From Sulfurisphaera javensis (GTDB taxonomy: Archaea > Thermoproteota > Thermoprotei_A > Sulfolobales > Sulfolobaceae), in assembly GCF_041154675.1 (NCBI RefSeq), contig NZ_AP031322.1:1426001-1490000 (forward strand): DNA of 64,000 nucleotides, in the 5' to 3' direction. A program made the translations under genes and the position numbers. The notes below the pieces were generated by a model. The model was not told where the DNA came from, made no database searches, and saw nothing but the letters and a program-made list of their open reading frames with translations. Below, piece by piece: positions 45,980-57,467 of this stretch (position 1 is its first letter; every line of letters starts with the position of its first letter).

Positions 45980-46467
45980 TTGTTATATTCCATGCTCTTA
46001 CATAAATTTTTAACATTCAAATAATCTGATAAGGTATTCACATTAATGATCTCTTTCTCGAAATATACGTTTTCGTACTCATTAAACTTAAATTCTTTCC
46101 ATAAGCTAATTCCTACATAACCAGATTTAGTTAGAAGACTACATATAGGTTTTTCGCAATTAAAGAGCTTATACATAGCTTCTTCTGGAATAAATGGGGT
46201 ATCAGAAGGTACAATTATTACTGGAAAACCAACTTTTTTTATAGCTTCAATGACGTCATATTCATACCCTTTTCCTTCTGTTATGACTTTTCGAAACTCT
46301 GAAAATATTAAAGGGCTATAAGGTGTTATTGCAAGATAGATTTCATTTGTAAAGTTTAATAAATTTCTATAAACCCAATAATACATAGGATAACCGCATA
46401 AGTCTAAAAGAGGTTTAAAAGGAGATAACCTAGTGCCCTTACCCCCAGCCATAATAATTGCTTTCAA
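45961..46467 (-). CDS. MobA/CobY-like nucleotidyltransferase
   Basis: About 168 residues starting LKAIIMAGGKGTRLSPFKPLLDLCGYPM, the nucleotide-binding signature of NTP-transferases. The TTG at 46467 gives the usual family start; an ATG at 46485 is an alternative. It resembles archaeal CobY (GTP:adenosylcobinamide-phosphate guanylyltransferase), which is of similar size; a MobA-like role is possible too. It overlaps the upstream AIR-synthase-like gene and the downstream DUF1614 gene. Confidence 0.75.
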   Translation of the reverse strand: MKAIIMAGGKGTRLSPFKPLLDLCGYPMYYWVYRNLLNFTNEIYLAITPYSPLIFSEFRKVITEGKGYEYDVIEAIKKVGFPVIIVPSDTPFIPEEAMYKLFNCEKPICSLLTKSGYVGISLWKEFKFNEYENVYFEKEIINVNTLSDYLNVKNLCKSMEYNKWLKEY

Positions 46468-47380
46468 ACCTGACAAGCTCTTCATAGAAATCCTCCTTGA
46501 AGACTCCTTCTCCCTCAACTTCTAATACGTCTTCTCCCTCAACTATTTTTCCTATTATCTCTCCTCCAAGCTCCTCAATCTTCTTAGGTTTATCTGTTAT
46601 TACAATAAAAGCACCAGAGGAAATTAACGTATAAGGATTTATTCTCAAAGCTTTTGTTATTTCCAAGGTTTCTTCTAACATTCTAGGCTTTTTGTTTATT
46701 ACTACTTTATTTTTACTAGCCTTCGCCACTTCTAATAACGCTTGATAAACTCCTCCCTCTGTTGCATCATGCATTGCAATTACATAGTCTTTTACTCTTA
46801 ACGCTTTATCTTGAACTGAAATAAAATTTCTGAGTTGTTTAGCTTTCTCTATAGTTTCTTTTTTAATTCCTCTTTTTAGAAGCTCATCCTCAAATTCATT
46901 TGCTAAAATCCATGTTCCTTCTAAACCAGTATATCCAAAAAACCCTATGTAATGCCCTGCTTTTGCATCTGATAATTTCATAATTTTGTTACTAAAAGAT
47001 AATGCAGTAGTAGTTACTATGTCTTGATTTAATCCCCTTGTTACTTCAGTGTGTCCTCCAATTACTGAACAACCTATTATTCTACAAGCTTCATTTATTC
47101 CTTCAATTACTTTATCAAGGTTTTCCTTTTTGGATAGAAGTATAGTAGTCAATACCCACTTACAAGGTACTCCTTTCATATTTACATCATTACAAGCCAC
47201 AGTAACTGATAAGAAACCAGCATCTTTTCCAGCTTCAGTTATTGGATCAGAATGAATAACTAGATATTCCCCTTCAGTCTTAATCATTGCATCATCTTCA
47301 CCTATTGAGGGACAAACATCACAATTTCCGGTCTGAATTTTACTTAGGAAGTCTTTAACTGGAATTTTTCCAAAAAGCAT
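46439..47380 (-). CDS. AIR synthase-related protein (PurM/HypE/ThiL fold)
   Basis: A 313-residue protein of the PurM superfamily: CPSIGEDDAMIKTEGEYLVIHSDPI near the start (ATP/Mg motif with acidic residues), FLSVTVACNDVNMKGVPCKW, SVIGGHTEVTRGLNQDIV and MHDATEGGVYQALLEVAKAS. It belongs to the archaeal HypE-like/AIR-synthase-related group whose substrate is unknown. The start is ATG 47380. First gene of the operon with a nucleotidyltransferase and DUF1614; it is divergent from an ABC exporter with only 27 bases between starts. Confidence 0.82.
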   Translation of the reverse strand: MLFGKIPVKDFLSKIQTGNCDVCPSIGEDDAMIKTEGEYLVIHSDPITEAGKDAGFLSVTVACNDVNMKGVPCKWVLTTILLSKKENLDKVIEGINEACRIIGCSVIGGHTEVTRGLNQDIVTTTALSFSNKIMKLSDAKAGHYIGFFGYTGLEGTWILANEFEDELLKRGIKKETIEKAKQLRNFISVQDKALRVKDYVIAMHDATEGGVYQALLEVAKASKNKVVINKKPRMLEETLEITKALRINPYTLISSGAFIVITDKPKKIEELGGEIIGKIVEGEDVLEVEGEGVFKEDFYEELVRFESNYYGWG

Positions 47381-47407
47381 AAATTTTATACGTACGAGAG
47401 GGTAAAT

Positions 47408-48136
47408 ATGCATTTAATTGAGGTTGAAGATCTTTGGAAAATTTATAAGAATGGCGTTGAAGCACTAAAGGGAATTTCCTTCACAGTTGATGAAGGAGAA
47501 GTATTTACATTTCTTGGTCCAAATGGTGCTGGTAAAACTACTACAATTAAAATTCTTTCTTGTGTTTTAAAACCAACGAAAGGTAAAGTAGTTATTTCTG
47601 GCTATTCTTCCCCTAAAGAGTGTGACAAAATCAGAAGAGTAGTCACTACTGTACCCCAGGAATTTCAAGGGTTTTCAGATTTAACAGTGAGGGAAAACAT
47701 AGAGTATTTTGCAAAGCTTTACGATACAGTAGATAAAGTTGATGAAATAATAGAGAAATTGGATTTAAAAGAGCATGAAAGGAAAAGATTCAAAGAATTA
47801 TCGGGCGGTTTGAAAAGAAGAGTTGCAATTGCTTGCGGATTAGTTGGAGATCCTAGAGTAATTTTTCTTGATGAGCCTACAATAGGTCTTGATCCAAAAG
47901 CTAGAAGAAATCTCTGGAAATTAATAGAGACTTTAAAACATATGAAAATTACAGTTTTTCTAGCAACTCATTATTTGGATGAGGCTGAAAAATTAGCAGA
48001 TAAAGTAGGAGTAATATATAAGGGTAAGATAATCAAAATTTCTTCACCTTCAGAACTTATGGAAGAATTTAAAAAAGAAAATTTAGAAGATGCTTATCTT
48101 TCGTTAATGGAACAGTTAAAAAGTGAGGAAGAATGA
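47408..48136 (+). CDS. ABC-2 type exporter ATPase
   Basis: A 242-residue ATPase. Walker A GPNGAGKTT near 38, signature LSGGLKRRVAIACGL near 133 and Walker B VIFLDEPTIGLDP near 155, with THYLDEAEKLAD after. The LDEPT-x-GLDP version is typical of DrrA/CcmA-like exporters. It is coupled to the permease gene (ATGA overlap). Substrate unknown. Confidence 0.93.
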   Translation: MHLIEVEDLWKIYKNGVEALKGISFTVDEGEVFTFLGPNGAGKTTTIKILSCVLKPTKGKVVISGYSSPKECDKIRRVVTTVPQEFQGFSDLTVRENIEYFAKLYDTVDKVDEIIEKLDLKEHERKRFKELSGGLKRRVAIACGLVGDPRVIFLDEPTIGLDPKARRNLWKLIETLKHMKITVFLATHYLDEAEKLADKVGVIYKGKIIKISSPSELMEEFKKENLEDAYLSLMEQLKSEEE

Positions 48137-52112: not shown

Positions 52113-52475
52113 ATGAGAATAGTTGTAACATATGATAAAGAATTTAATTTAAAACCATTAGATGAAGCAGAAATAATTGGTTTAATAGATGAGGAAAAGA
52201 AAGAAGTTGAACAATATGAGAATCCGGGAATTGGCAGCAAAGAGATGACTATGGATGCTATCCTAAGTTTAAGTCCAGATGCTATCGTAGTTAGTAAGGG
52301 TTTCTTATGTCCAGGATCATATATGATGTCTTATGGAAGAATAAAGTACATACCAACAGAATATAAAAACTTAAATGAAGTATTAAATCATTTAGATGAG
52401 TTAAAAAAGAACATTAGGGATGAATTAGAAGAAGATATGTACGCTGAGGAGCATATGCACCATTATCGTTTCTAA
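52113..52475 (+). CDS. NifX/NifB-like (dinitrogenase Fe-Mo cofactor type) small protein
   Basis: A 120-residue protein beginning MRIVVTYDKEFNLKPLDEAEIIGLID, which reads like the NifX/NafY fold used to carry Fe-S or Fe-Mo precursors. It has one Cys in a FLCPGSYMM loop and a His-rich end (EEHMHHYRF). It could bind a metal or metal cluster. The fold call is by pattern, so modest. It overlaps the convergent rhodanese gene by 4 bases. Confidence 0.55.
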   Translation: MRIVVTYDKEFNLKPLDEAEIIGLIDEEKKEVEQYENPGIGSKEMTMDAILSLSPDAIVVSKGFLCPGSYMMSYGRIKYIPTEYKNLNEVLNHLDELKKNIRDELEEDMYAEEHMHHYRF

Positions 52476-52876
52476 CTCTGAAGTTCTTCAATCCATTTTT
52501 CCCAAAGTTTTCCGTTTTCGTCAATTCCTGTAGTTACTTCATAACCCATGCTCATCCATCCCGCCATTCCTCCTATCATGTAATATACTTTTTTACCTTT
52601 CCACAAATCTGGCATGCCATAAGTTGCATATCTAGCCCTATTTCCATGTTCGCAAATTACTGCTATTTCTTTGTGTGGTATTTTTTGTATTAATACATCT
52701 AAATAATCAAGAGGCACTAAGATAGCTCCGGGAATATGATGATCTTCGTATTCCATTGGTGTTCTAATATCGAGTAACAAGACTTGGTTCTTTTTCCATA
52801 GTTTCCTTACTACTGAGGGAAATACATCAATAATATGTGGATAAAATGGTGAGGTGTATTGTTCAATTACTTCCAT
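52472..52876 (-). CDS. Rhodanese-domain sulfurtransferase
   Basis: A 134-residue protein with a single rhodanese domain: VLLDIRTPMEYEDHHIPGAILVPLDYL near 40 and the active loop AVICEHGNRARYA near 83, with Cys as the likely persulfide carrier. It probably passes sulfane sulfur to acceptors such as TusA or DsrE. Its neighbours on both sides are relay-type proteins. Confidence 0.88.
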   Translation of the reverse strand: MEVIEQYTSPFYPHIIDVFPSVVRKLWKKNQVLLLDIRTPMEYEDHHIPGAILVPLDYLDVLIQKIPHKEIAVICEHGNRARYATYGMPDLWKGKKVYYMIGGMAGWMSMGYEVTTGIDENGKLWEKWIEELQS

Positions 52877-53122: not shown

Positions 53123-53359
53123 ATGAGTCAACTCAAGATATATAAAGAACTAGATCTAACAAGTTCCTCATGTGCCGGGCCAATCGGAGAACTCTCTGGA
53201 GTATTAGAAGAGATTAGAGAGGGAGAAGCTGTAAAGGTAATTTTAGGAGATGAAGCTACAAAAAAAGATGTTGAAGCTTTCGTGAAAAAGAAAGGATACA
53301 AAATAGCTCAATCCACTCAAGAGGGAAAGAATTTCGTATTATTAATAACAAAAGGGTGA
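53123..53359 (+). CDS. TusA/SirA-like sulfur carrier protein
   Basis: A 78-residue protein. [23 protein letters not shown] matches the TusA first strand-helix, with Cys near 17 in the position of the CPxP cysteine but read as CAGP. The [26 protein letters not shown] block is the TusA second part. TusA passes persulfide sulfur. It starts an operon with an SQR-like flavoprotein and a DsrE protein, a combination fitting sulfur transfer. Confidence 0.82.
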
Positions 53360-53363
53360 AAGA

Positions 53364-54518
53364 ATGAAAAGGATTATAATTGCAGGAGGAAACATTGCGG
53401 GAACTATAGTTGCAAATAGGTTAGCTAAAAAGTTAGATGAAGAACTTGATAAAGGCGAAGTGGAAATAGTAGTATTAAACCCAACCGATGAGCATACTTA
53501 CTTACCTGGGCAATTGTTAGTAGCTTACGGCCTCGAAAACCCTGTAGAGCTGAAAAGAAAAGAGAGTGAATTACTTGATCCAAGAATAAAATTCTTACAT
53601 GGTCAAAAAGGAACTATTACGAAAATTGATGTAGCAAATCATTCAGTAATTACTGCTGATGGCCTATCTCATTCATATGACTATTTAGTCATAACAACTG
53701 GAGTAGATTACACATGGGATGAAGTACCAGGTTATAGAGCCGCTGCATTATCGCCTTATGAATATGATGGAGCACTAAAGATGAGAGAAGCTTTAGAGAA
53801 ATTCCAAGGAGGGACTATTGTAGTTAATGTTGCAAAGTTGCCTCACAGATGTCCAGTAGCACCTTTGGAAATGACATTAATACTTGATGACTACTTGAGA
53901 AAAAGAGGAATTAGGGATAAGACAAAGATAATTTACACTTATCCAACGCAAGGGGTATTTGGTAGACCAATTACAAATAAGTTTATGTTAAAGTTATTCG
54001 AAGAAAGAGGAATTGAAGTTCATTCGCCATTTAATGTTACTAAAGTTGATCCTAATGAGAAAGTAATTGAGTCCCAGGAAGGAGGAAAGTTAAAGTTTGA
54101 CTTACTATTAGGAGTCCCACCAAATATGGGTGCTAAGGTAATTGAAGATTCTGGAATTGGTGACAGAAGAAGATGGGTCCCAACTGATAAATTTACGTTA
54201 AGGATGAAGGATCAGTCAAATGTTTATGTTATGGGTGACGCAACTGACTTACCAGTGTCTAAAGCAGGTTCTACAGCAGATTTTGAGTCATATATTGTAG
54301 CTCATAATATAGCTAACGACATTAAAGGAAATATGGGAGTAAAGCACTATGGTGGGGATGTCTTATGTTATATTGCAACTGGTACTGACACTGCAACTTA
54401 TATTAGGTTTAGTTATACAATGAATGAGAATCCACCACCACCATCATACGTACACTGGTGGGGTAAGATAGGGTATAACAAACTATACTGGACTGTAACT
54501 GCTAAAGCTGTGGTGTAA
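53364..54518 (+). CDS. Sulfide:quinone oxidoreductase-like FAD protein
   Basis: A 384-residue flavoprotein. N-terminal FAD loop [27 protein letters not shown] near 107, [19 protein letters not shown] with Cys163, and [20 protein letters not shown] near 290. A second Cys lies at 335 (DVLCYIATG). Canonical SQRs have three essential Cys; only two are evident, so it may be a distant SQR or use a persulfide in another way. It lies 4 bases after the TusA-like gene and is followed by DsrE. Confidence 0.87.
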
Positions 54519-54519
54519 A

Positions 54520-54903
54520 ATGGCAAAAGTAGGAATAGTGCTTGGTACTAATGAGCTTTCAAAAGTCCTCTATACAGGAATGTGGGCTGTAATATCGACG
54601 TCAATGGGAGATGAAGTAATAATTTTTGCAACAATGGATGGTGTAAAGGTATTTTTAAAGGAAAATCCAGATTTAAAGGTAACTGATGAAGCATCAAAGA
54701 AAGTATTAGAAGCAAAAGAAGATATTTTATCTTACTATAGAAAAGCCAAGAAAACTGGAAAATTAAAAATTTATGCGTGCTCTTATGCAACAAAATTATT
54801 TGGGTTAGAAAAAGGAAATTATGATGATTTAATTGACGATATAGTTGGTATAACAACCTTTCAAATGGAATTAGAGGGAGCTCAAATTCTATCAATTTGG
54901 TGA
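54520..54903 (+). CDS. DsrE-family sulfur relay protein
   Basis: A 127-residue protein of the DsrE/F/H type, with the typical strand-helix alternation and a Cys near 88 in KIYACSYATKLFGL, the site where DsrE2/DsrE3 proteins carry a persulfide. It is one of the relay parts of archaeal and bacterial sulfur oxidation. It follows the SQR-like gene by one base. Confidence 0.88.
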   Translation: MAKVGIVLGTNELSKVLYTGMWAVISTSMGDEVIIFATMDGVKVFLKENPDLKVTDEASKKVLEAKEDILSYYRKAKKTGKLKIYACSYATKLFGLEKGNYDDLIDDIVGITTFQMELEGAQILSIW

Positions 54904-54907
54904 TTAA

Positions 54908-56029
54908 ATGCAAGAGCTTAACTTGGAGAAATTAATGGAAAAACTTGATAATAAAAAGATTGAAGAACTTTCAGAGATACTTGATCAACTTCCTACTTTA
55001 AATGAAACTTTAAAGACTGTTTCACAACTTAAAGAGACTGGAGCACTTGATGCATTAGTAAATTTATCATATTCAGCTAAAGTATTAAGAGATATGTTGA
55101 CAGATGACGCTATTGAAAACACGGTTGAAATGCTTGGTGGACTGATGGAACTATCAGAAATAATTTCGGAAAATGGAAATAAATTCGCAGAGTTTGTAAA
55201 GCATTTAGATTTAATGGATGATTTACTTCATACTATTCATCAATTAAAAGAATCCGGTGCATTAGATGCTGTTGTTGATGCTACATATTTCTTAAAGACT
55301 ATGAAAGATATGTTAAACGATGAAGCTATAAGTAACTTAGCTTCTTCCATATCTGGTATCCTAGAATTTTCCACTGTATTCTTAGATAACTATGATAAAA
55401 TAAATGAAACTATAAGGCACATAGGAGTAGTCAACGATTTATTAGTAAAAATGAAAGAGTTAAACGAGTCTGGTGCATTAAATGCATTAATGGATTCTGC
55501 ATATATGCTTAAGACATTACGCGATATGTTAAACGACGAAGCTATAAGTAATATTGCTAGTTCTATTTCTGGTTTATTAGAGCTCTCTTCTACATTTTAT
55601 GATAATTATGATCATGTAATGAAAGTAATAAAGAACATTGATATAGTAGGAGAGCTTTTAGATAAAATGAAAGAACTAAAATCTAGTGGAGCTTTAGATG
55701 CTGTTGTTGATGCTACATATTTCTTAAAGACCATGAAAGATATGTTAAACGATGAAGCTATAGCTAATATAACTACTACGCTTTCCTTAACTTTAGATTT
55801 TCTACCTAGGGGTATTGAATTTCTTAATCATGCAATGCATCCAGTGTTTTATAATATGGTAACTACTTTAACCTCTCCGGAAGCTCAGAAACTCCTTTCA
55901 AATCCACCTAAGGTAACTTTAGGTGGATTAGTTGCAGCATTTAGAGATGAAGACATACAACGTGGAGTTGGTGTTTTACTAACTATTTTGAAAATTTTGG
56001 GTAAAAACTACAAAATCAATTTATCGTAG
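54908..56029 (+). CDS. DUF1641-type repeat protein
   Basis: A 373-residue all-helical protein built of four units of 72 residues (about residues 46 to 300), each with the pattern SGALDAxVDxxYxLKxMxDMLNDEAIxN. A GGTGAT ribosome site precedes the ATG. The DUF1641 family often sits with SQR, DsrE or formate dehydrogenase genes and is thought to be a partner or scaffold; its function is unknown. A 69-bp stretch is nearly identical in units 2 and 4 (55262-55330 and 55694-55762). Confidence 0.84.
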   Translation: MQELNLEKLMEKLDNKKIEELSEILDQLPTLNETLKTVSQLKETGALDALVNLSYSAKVLRDMLTDDAIENTVEMLGGLMELSEIISENGNKFAEFVKHLDLMDDLLHTIHQLKESGALDAVVDATYFLKTMKDMLNDEAISNLASSISGILEFSTVFLDNYDKINETIRHIGVVNDLLVKMKELNESGALNALMDSAYMLKTLRDMLNDEAISNIASSISGLLELSSTFYDNYDHVMKVIKNIDIVGELLDKMKELKSSGALDAVVDATYFLKTMKDMLNDEAIANITTTLSLTLDFLPRGIEFLNHAMHPVFYNMVTTLTSPEAQKLLSNPPKVTLGGLVAAFRDEDIQRGVGVLLTILKILGKNYKINLS

Positions 56030-56078: not shown

Positions 56079-57467
56079 ATGGACATATTTACGAAATTTA
56101 GGGAGAATTTGGAAGTTTATAAGAGTATGGGATTAAATCCTTTGTCTCTTGCGACTGGTTGTGCAGTAAAAGTTGATTTGATAGATACAGTATATCCAGC
56201 ACTTGAAAAAATAAGAAAGATCCTTGAAGAAAGAAACATTACTATACTTCCAAGAGAAGATGCTGATATTTTTATAACAAAAGAAAAAATGGAAATGAAA
56301 AGGATTATAAATGGAGGAGAATTTGATGCCGATAGGGCAATAAGTTTAATTCAAGTTAATCAAGAAACAGCTGGAAATCCTGAGGCTTTTTCAAATTTTC
56401 TTATAAGAGTGTATACTTCAGTGAAAACTAAGCGGAAATTAACTATAGGTAAAGGACATTCTATTGTTACTACTAAAAAAGATGGTGAGGTAGCGGTATT
56501 AGACCTCTTTAGATTAGATGGTAAAGAGGAGAAATCATATACAGTTGCAAATAATGATACAATACAGATAGTTGACCCTCTTGATAACCCTGGTTCTCAA
56601 ACGCAAGTCGACGTTGCTATATCAAATTCGTTAAATGATTTATTTACTAAAGGTGCTTATCAAGACTTAATTATAGTTCCAGTAGTTGATGCACCGAATG
56701 AAAAACTAAAAGAGATTTTGTTGTCAAATTATGAAAACTTTACGAAAAAGTATAATATGAGCTTAAAACATGATATTCAGCCTTCTGTGGGTACTTTAAT
56801 GATGGGAGCTACGGTAATTGGAAAGAGTGATCATGAATTACCAACCTTTTACGATAAAGTAGACGAGGATATGGTAATTATAGCTAATAGATTCTTTGGT
56901 GAGTTAACACCAATTAACGTTCATCTTTGGGCATTAGCTGTTCCGGAATTAATTGAAATAATGGAAAGTAAAGGAATTCGGTTCTCTAGAGTAGAGGAAG
57001 TTAAAGCAAAGGCTTTAGAAATTATGAGAAGACCGAATATTCACGTAGCTAAAGTTATTTATTCTTATTTGCCAGAGTTTGGAAAACCTTTTGATAAAAA
57101 CTCTCATATTGCTATGACTACTGACGTTACTGGTCCTGGAATATTTGTAATTAAAGAGTTTGCTGAGAAAGCTGGTGTAGACGTTGAATTAACAAATATT
57201 CCGGTAATAGATAGAGATATATGCGAATTTGCTACTGAGAACTTCATAATTCCTAATTCAACTATTGGAACTAATGGTGCAATAGTCATTTTTGCTAGCA
57301 AAAAGATAGCTGATGATATAATGGAGGACTTAACTAAAGTTGGTGAAAAACCAGAAATTGTTGGTTATGTTAAAGGTAAAGGAAATGGTACAGTATATGC
57401 TCCAAAAGATGTTATTAAGCTAATAAGAAGGGATAATGTATTAAAACAGTTTAAAATAAAAGAATGA
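56079..57467 (+). CDS. SelD-like protein (selenophosphate synthetase relative, PurM fold)
   Basis: A 462-residue protein from the ATG at 56079; a GTG at 56064 (five codons upstream) is less likely, since a GGTG ribosome site precedes the [12 protein letters not shown] near the start has Cys28 and Lys31 spaced as the catalytic Cys17/Lys20 of E. coli Sel[26 protein letters not shown] is like the DPYxxG-x-IAATNALSD motif, and [27 protein letters not shown] matches the C-terminal PurM part. It probably phosphorylates selenide, sulfide or another small acceptor. Sulfolobales have no clear selenocysteine use, so it is an orphan. Confidence 0.78.

Follow-up and report, generated by a model that had tools for sequence, protein, structure and literature searches.

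A SelD-like gene in the genome of the archaeon Sulfurisphaera javensis raises the question of which element its product activates, selenium or sulfur. We analyzed the stretch of 64,000 nucleotides around the gene (NZ_AP031322.1, positions 1,426,001 to 1,490,000), referred to as the window, which belongs to a genome assembled as a single contig of 2.57 Mb. The gene occupies positions 56079–57467 of the window on the forward strand and encodes a protein of 462 residues, with TTG 56064 and GTG 56067 as possible earlier starts. Near the N-terminus, the protein carries the motif LATGCAVKV, in which Cys28 (codon TGT, 56160–56162) and Lys31 (codon AAA, 56169–56171) form a SelD-type Cys-x-x-Lys, encoded by 56160–56171 on the forward strand. 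The reading frame, the length, the motif and both residue numbers had been given in an earlier note on this DNA, and re-reading the sequence returned all of them. The spacing of the two residues is that of SelD, as had been claimed: E. coli MG1655 SelD reads C17-G-C-K20. The note also described the protein as longer and divergent, and it indeed has about 115 residues more than SelD and scores 39.6 bits with the SelD model PRK14105, under the cut-off of 291, so that the SelD equivalog threshold is not reached. Below, we examine the family, the predicted fold and the neighborhood of this protein. We give an even chance to the reading that it performs ATP-dependent synthesis of thiophosphate from TusA-bound sulfur.

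Family membership and predicted fold

The window protein belongs to an already published family of crenarchaeal SelD-like proteins, NF038049 (SelD_rel_HyperS, 'SelD-related putative sulfur metabolism protein'). It scores 707.2 bits against a cut-off of 250, and the match extends over residues 6–460 of 462. Its score and length, its N-terminal Cys-x-x-Lys and its sulfur-metabolism neighborhood are all those of the family. In 28 of 31 Sulfolobaceae genomes, the SelD-like protein is present as one gene. In an alignment of 15 sequences, reaching down to approximately 38% identity, residues G27, C28, V30, K31, V32, D33 and L34 do not vary among canonical members, and chance occurrence of the Cys-x-x-Lys is thus ruled out.

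The family is not new. It was reported in 2014 from thermophilic sulfur archaea of the Sulfolobales and Thermoproteales (Li et al., 2014; PMC4210487). The same study pointed out the Cys-x-x-Lys as well as Asp residues for metal binding, listed SirA (TusA), peroxiredoxin-like and rhodanese genes as neighbors, noticed that in Thermoproteales the protein is fused to an acylphosphatase, and proposed that it makes thiophosphate. We searched the literature for an experimental test of the family after 2014, or an assigned biochemical function, and found neither. Since reviews of 2022 and 2026 still repeat the thiophosphate idea as speculation, it seems that such a test has never been done.

Searching solved structures with the window protein as a single sequence gave nothing useful, and with the family profile, the search went no further than HypE (E 0.076) and a SelD (E 0.99). 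Because these searches gave too little, a comparison of folds was needed. The AlphaFold2 model of the window protein, built with 41 family sequences, has a pLDDT of 92.9 and a pTM of 0.92. Its best matches in the PDB are selenophosphate synthetases, namely human SEPHS1 (E 6.3e-18), the Leishmania enzyme (1.4e-16) and E. coli SelD (3U0O, 1.4e-16), and HypE, ThiL and PurM rank behind them. Meanwhile, comparing the family profile with a profile of SelDs, consisting of E. coli SelD and sequences from plasmid records, gave a probability of 98.7% and an E-value of 1.6e-16 over residues 167–442. The structure prediction that the note had proposed as a check, and the profile match, both point to SelDs and agree with its description of a SelD-like enzyme with Cys-x-x-Lys. 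The profile match, together with the predicted fold, identifies the window protein as a true member of the SelD superfamily. The model scores rule out an ordinary SelD, HypE, ThiL or PurM.

The search for the Asp residues that bind Mg-ATP, also proposed in the note, succeeded in part. In the profile alignment, D187 and D349, together with N183, align with D91, D227 and N87 of E. coli SelD. The counterparts of D51 and D68 are not reliably placeable, because the family carries extra sequence before residue 167. Residues 25–29, which form the Cys loop, are the only segment of the model with a pLDDT below 50, so the model does not fix the exact position of this loop over the active site. Aligned with E. 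coli SelD alone by hhalign, the family profile had its N-terminus misplaced; aligned with the SelD profile, its core matched well, and the Cys loop still did not. The putative equivalence of Cys28 and Lys31 to Cys17 and Lys20 therefore rests on the motif, the spacing and the place ahead of the first long helix.

The other AIRS_C genes of the genome include PurL, PurM and HypE-like genes, and none of them match SelD. In the window, we notice a further gene of the AIRS_C superfamily at 46439–47413 on the reverse strand, approximately 9 kb upstream of the SelD-like gene, with a weak HypE match of 35.5 bits.

The fold is common to HypE, ThiL and PurM, which leads to an alternative without free thiophosphate. 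Like HypE or ThiL, the enzyme would phosphorylate or dehydrate some other substrate, and Cys28 would serve as a sulfur relay or a redox switch. The extra sequence ahead of residue 167 and the acylphosphatase fusion suggest a different substrate as well. However, the SelD-type Cys is missing from HypE, ThiL and PurM (Li et al., 2014; PMC4210487) and invariant here, and the closest structures are SelDs. We regard this alternative as unlikely.

Sulfur genes around the SelD-like gene

The SelD-like gene closes a tightly packed run of genes on the forward strand. The run opens with a TusA-like sulfur carrier of 78 residues (53123–53359; PF01206, E 3.8e-14, G000:C1:1479144-1479353; NF001423, 26.5 bits, below the cut-off of 78). 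A type III sulfide:quinone oxidoreductase (SQR)-like flavoprotein of 384 residues comes second (53364–54518; NF049943, 342 bits, below the cut-off of 525; PF21706, FCSD_central), followed by a DsrE-like sulfurtransferase of 127 residues (54520–54903; PF02635, 32 bits, cut-off 22.7) and a DUF1641 protein of 373 residues (54908–56029; PF07849, 53 bits), the end of which lies 49 bases ahead of the ATG of the SelD-like gene. Upstream of the run and divergent from it, a rhodanese-like sulfurtransferase of 134 residues locates at 52472–52876 on the reverse strand (PF00581, 60.5 bits). We also notice an open reading frame of 120 residues at 52113–52475 on the forward strand, which has no Pfam or NCBIfam match; loci L047, L048 and L058 retain it close to their SelD-like genes.

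The same order of TusA, SQR, DsrE, DUF1641 and SelD-like genes is kept in the S. tokodaii-like locus L047, as well as in L051 and L060, and extra genes separate the run from the SelD-like gene in L048 and L058. A rhodanese gene is close to the SelD-like gene in 8 related Sulfolobaceae loci, and a DsrE gene is near it in 10 related loci. Of 34 crenarchaeal loci, 27 have TusA within approximately 10 kb, in most cases as the adjacent gene on the same strand; with 1 to 11 copies of TusA per genome, our own arithmetic gives about 2 of 34 loci by chance. Loci of the S. acidocaldarius, Metallosphaera and some other Sulfolobaceae types have no TusA near the SelD-like gene. A YeeE/YedE (YedE/TsuA-like) transporter accompanies the SelD-like gene and TusA in nine loci (L064, L066–L069, L075–L078), and also in L131 and L135. 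The translated SelD-like proteins of Thermoproteales bear an acylphosphatase-like tail, as described in 2014. These neighbors suggest the activation of sulfur, not selenium. TusA alone does not imply sulfur, because it also adjoins SelD in the genuine selenium systems of haloarchaea, on Haloarcula and Natrinema plasmids.

Alternatively, the protein might be a divergent selenophosphate synthetase that acts on selenide for some selenium use of these archaea, with TusA in the role of selenium carrier and the YedE-like protein in that of importer. Genuine selenium clusters do contain TusA/YedF and YedE along with SelD (PMC2276186, PMC9312934), and the one YeeE neighbor that was scored, in L076, is best on the selenium YedE/FdhT model, with 155 bits, below the cut-off of 350. 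Nevertheless, the SQR, DsrE and rhodanese neighbors are sulfur genes, and the score with the SelD model is far from its cut-off. No selenium trait is reported for Crenarchaeota (Li et al., 2014; PMC4210487). Neither YqeB (TIGR03309) nor SelU exceeds its cut-off in any of 98 genomes of the window's order (0/98 each), and YqeB has no such match in the window genome. Taken together, we consider a selenide-using enzyme improbable.

Molybdenum hydroxylases and a selenium cofactor

The note had tentatively connected the gene with orphan SelD proteins that serve a labile selenium cofactor of molybdenum (Mo) hydroxylases. True orphan SelDs are accompanied by YqeB and YqeC (Haft and Self, 2008; PMC2276186). 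The absence of YqeB and SelU from the 98 genomes speaks against the connection, and so does the co-occurrence analysis with Mo-hydroxylase large subunits that the note had recommended. Outside Sulfolobaceae, Mo hydroxylases occur in 3 of 12 genomes with the SelD-like gene (the other 9 have none at all) versus 28 of 55 without it. Within Sulfolobaceae, all three genomes of one genus (g3; G005, G014, G021) lack the SelD-like gene and possess 4 to 6 Mo hydroxylases, together with 9 copies of TusA. This genus departs from the earlier statement that all Sulfolobales have the gene (Li et al., 2014; PMC4210487). The presence of the SelD-like gene neither requires nor follows from that of Mo hydroxylases. 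The co-occurrence counts and the absence of YqeB led us to reject the selenium cofactor as the main reading.

In a few relatives, the two kinds of genes do stand together. In L048 (5357–8942) and L049 (11399–14981), the SelD-like gene is immediately followed, in the same orientation, by a complete operon of the cutB-cutC-cutA type. Its large subunit matches glyceraldehyde dehydrogenase alpha (NF041018, 1315 bits) and has the same position in L058. These are Saccharolobus/Sulfolobus-type loci, and the operon after the SelD-like gene is found in two related genera. In the Metallosphaera-type loci L052 and L056, the large subunit is adjacent in the opposite orientation. The enzyme might thus serve Mo hydroxylases through selenium, or through activated sulfur for the sulfido ligand of the Mo cofactor, which we take to be very improbable in view of the counts, the g3 genomes, the missing YqeB and the lack of a Mo-hydroxylase gene near the SelD-like gene in the window. 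Because cut operons follow the gene in L048 and L049, and the large subunit in L058, a role in sulfurating Mo cofactors keeps a low probability.

Wider distribution, a degenerate branch and the proposed function

Among 229 genomes of the class, 55 contain NF038049 members above the cut-off. Within the GTDB order of the window, these members extend to seven further families (f3, f4, f5, f6, f8, f10, f11), which are probably the former Desulfurococcales, an order without the gene according to Li et al. (2014; PMC4210487). Five families of Nitrososphaeria (f72, f73, f81, f88, f89) also carry members, with 408–573 bits. Judging from their distance to ammonia oxidizers and their small genomes, these families are presumably thermophilic. 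In eight Nitrososphaeria loci (L131–L138), outside Crenarchaeota, GCAVKVDL is found in 8/8, and so is TusA on the same strand within 1.3 kb. In L136, a stand-alone acylphosphatase gene is located between TusA and the SelD-like gene, which independently mirrors the fusion seen in Thermoproteales.

A third form of the SelD-like protein, with about 200–290 bits, belongs to the Nitrososphaeria family f54 (Nitrososphaeraceae), and named records assign it to Nitrososphaera, Nitrosocosmicus and Nitrosopolaris. It is monophyletic with a support of 100/100 in a midpoint-rooted tree, and it shares a DPLRW block with most canonical Nitrososphaeria sequences. Its predicted fold is still that of SelD (pLDDT 92.7; SEPHS1 match 2.2e-13). 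In all 34 aligned sequences, Lys31 is replaced by Glu or Gln, Asp187 is lost and Asp349 is Pro; Asp160 and Asn183 are kept in none, and Cys28 is kept in 24 and lost in 10. Among 40 Nitrososphaeraceae loci (L081–L120, including a few fetched twice), the gene stands back to back with cysH (APS/PAPS reductase) and sat (ATP sulfurylase), in divergent orientation, in 33. For the other 7, the upstream DNA is too short or the locus falls in a single clade (L102–L106); in L102, 8 kb of upstream DNA contains neither cysH nor sat. The literature search, which included SelD-like proteins named in Nitrososphaera, returned no report on this form.

The motif residues and the TusA neighbor are lost together in the Nitrososphaeraceae branch. 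In the simplest reading, this form is probably a dead enzyme, which soil ammonia oxidizers retain for sulfate assimilation as a sensor or partner protein. The joint proposal, that this form is such a dead sensor or partner while the canonical thermophile members, linked to TusA, genuinely make thiophosphate, has in our estimate slightly less than an even chance. As far as we searched, three observations are new: the degenerate branch facing cysH and sat, the canonical members in thermophilic Nitrososphaeria, and the links to YedE-like transporters and a stand-alone acylphosphatase. Our additions to the description of 2014 are the quantified TusA link, the negative Mo-hydroxylase test, the broader distribution of the family and its branch with lost residues.

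Thiophosphate synthesis is supported by the family, the fold, the invariant residues, the links to TusA, YedE and acylphosphatase, and the joint loss of motif and TusA in Nitrososphaeraceae. Judging from the fold and the conserved residues, Mg-ATP would bind in the cleft as in SelD. The operon suggests that DsrE or rhodanese may pass sulfur to TusA, which may load sulfane sulfur onto Cys28 as a persulfide. By analogy with SelD, Lys31 would aid phosphate transfer from ATP to the sulfur, yielding thiophosphate, AMP and phosphate. Thiophosphate would be the sulfur counterpart of selenophosphate, an activated sulfur donor, and the acylphosphatase that is fused or adjacent in some relatives may act on a phosphorylated product or a side product. 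We found no enzyme that uses thiophosphate. If thiophosphate synthesis is indeed the function, these archaea possess a currency of activated sulfur that parallels selenophosphate, and the chemistry of SelD may derive from that of sulfur or have spawned it. The broader range of the family, its close association with TusA and the naturally degraded branch beside sulfate-assimilation genes make the question directly testable in the genetically tractable Sulfolobus acidocaldarius and with purified proteins.

Compared with the SelDs of E. coli, Aquifex and human (SEPHS1), the window protein has the same fold, the Cys-x-x-Lys and equivalents of N87, D91 and D227. In contrast, it is about 115 residues longer, stays at 39.6 bits versus 291, lacks selenium pathway genes and has other neighbors. 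The orphan SelDs with YqeB/YqeC (PMC2276186) share with it a TusA/SirA-family neighbor and, in a few relatives, an adjacent Mo-hydroxylase operon, whereas YqeB is missing here and the gene does not co-occur with Mo hydroxylases. With the published NF038049 family, the window protein agrees in the full-length match, the motif, the SirA/TusA, rhodanese and other sulfur neighbors, and the acylphosphatase fusion of its Thermoproteales members. We see no differences from this family, the range of which is itself wider than published.
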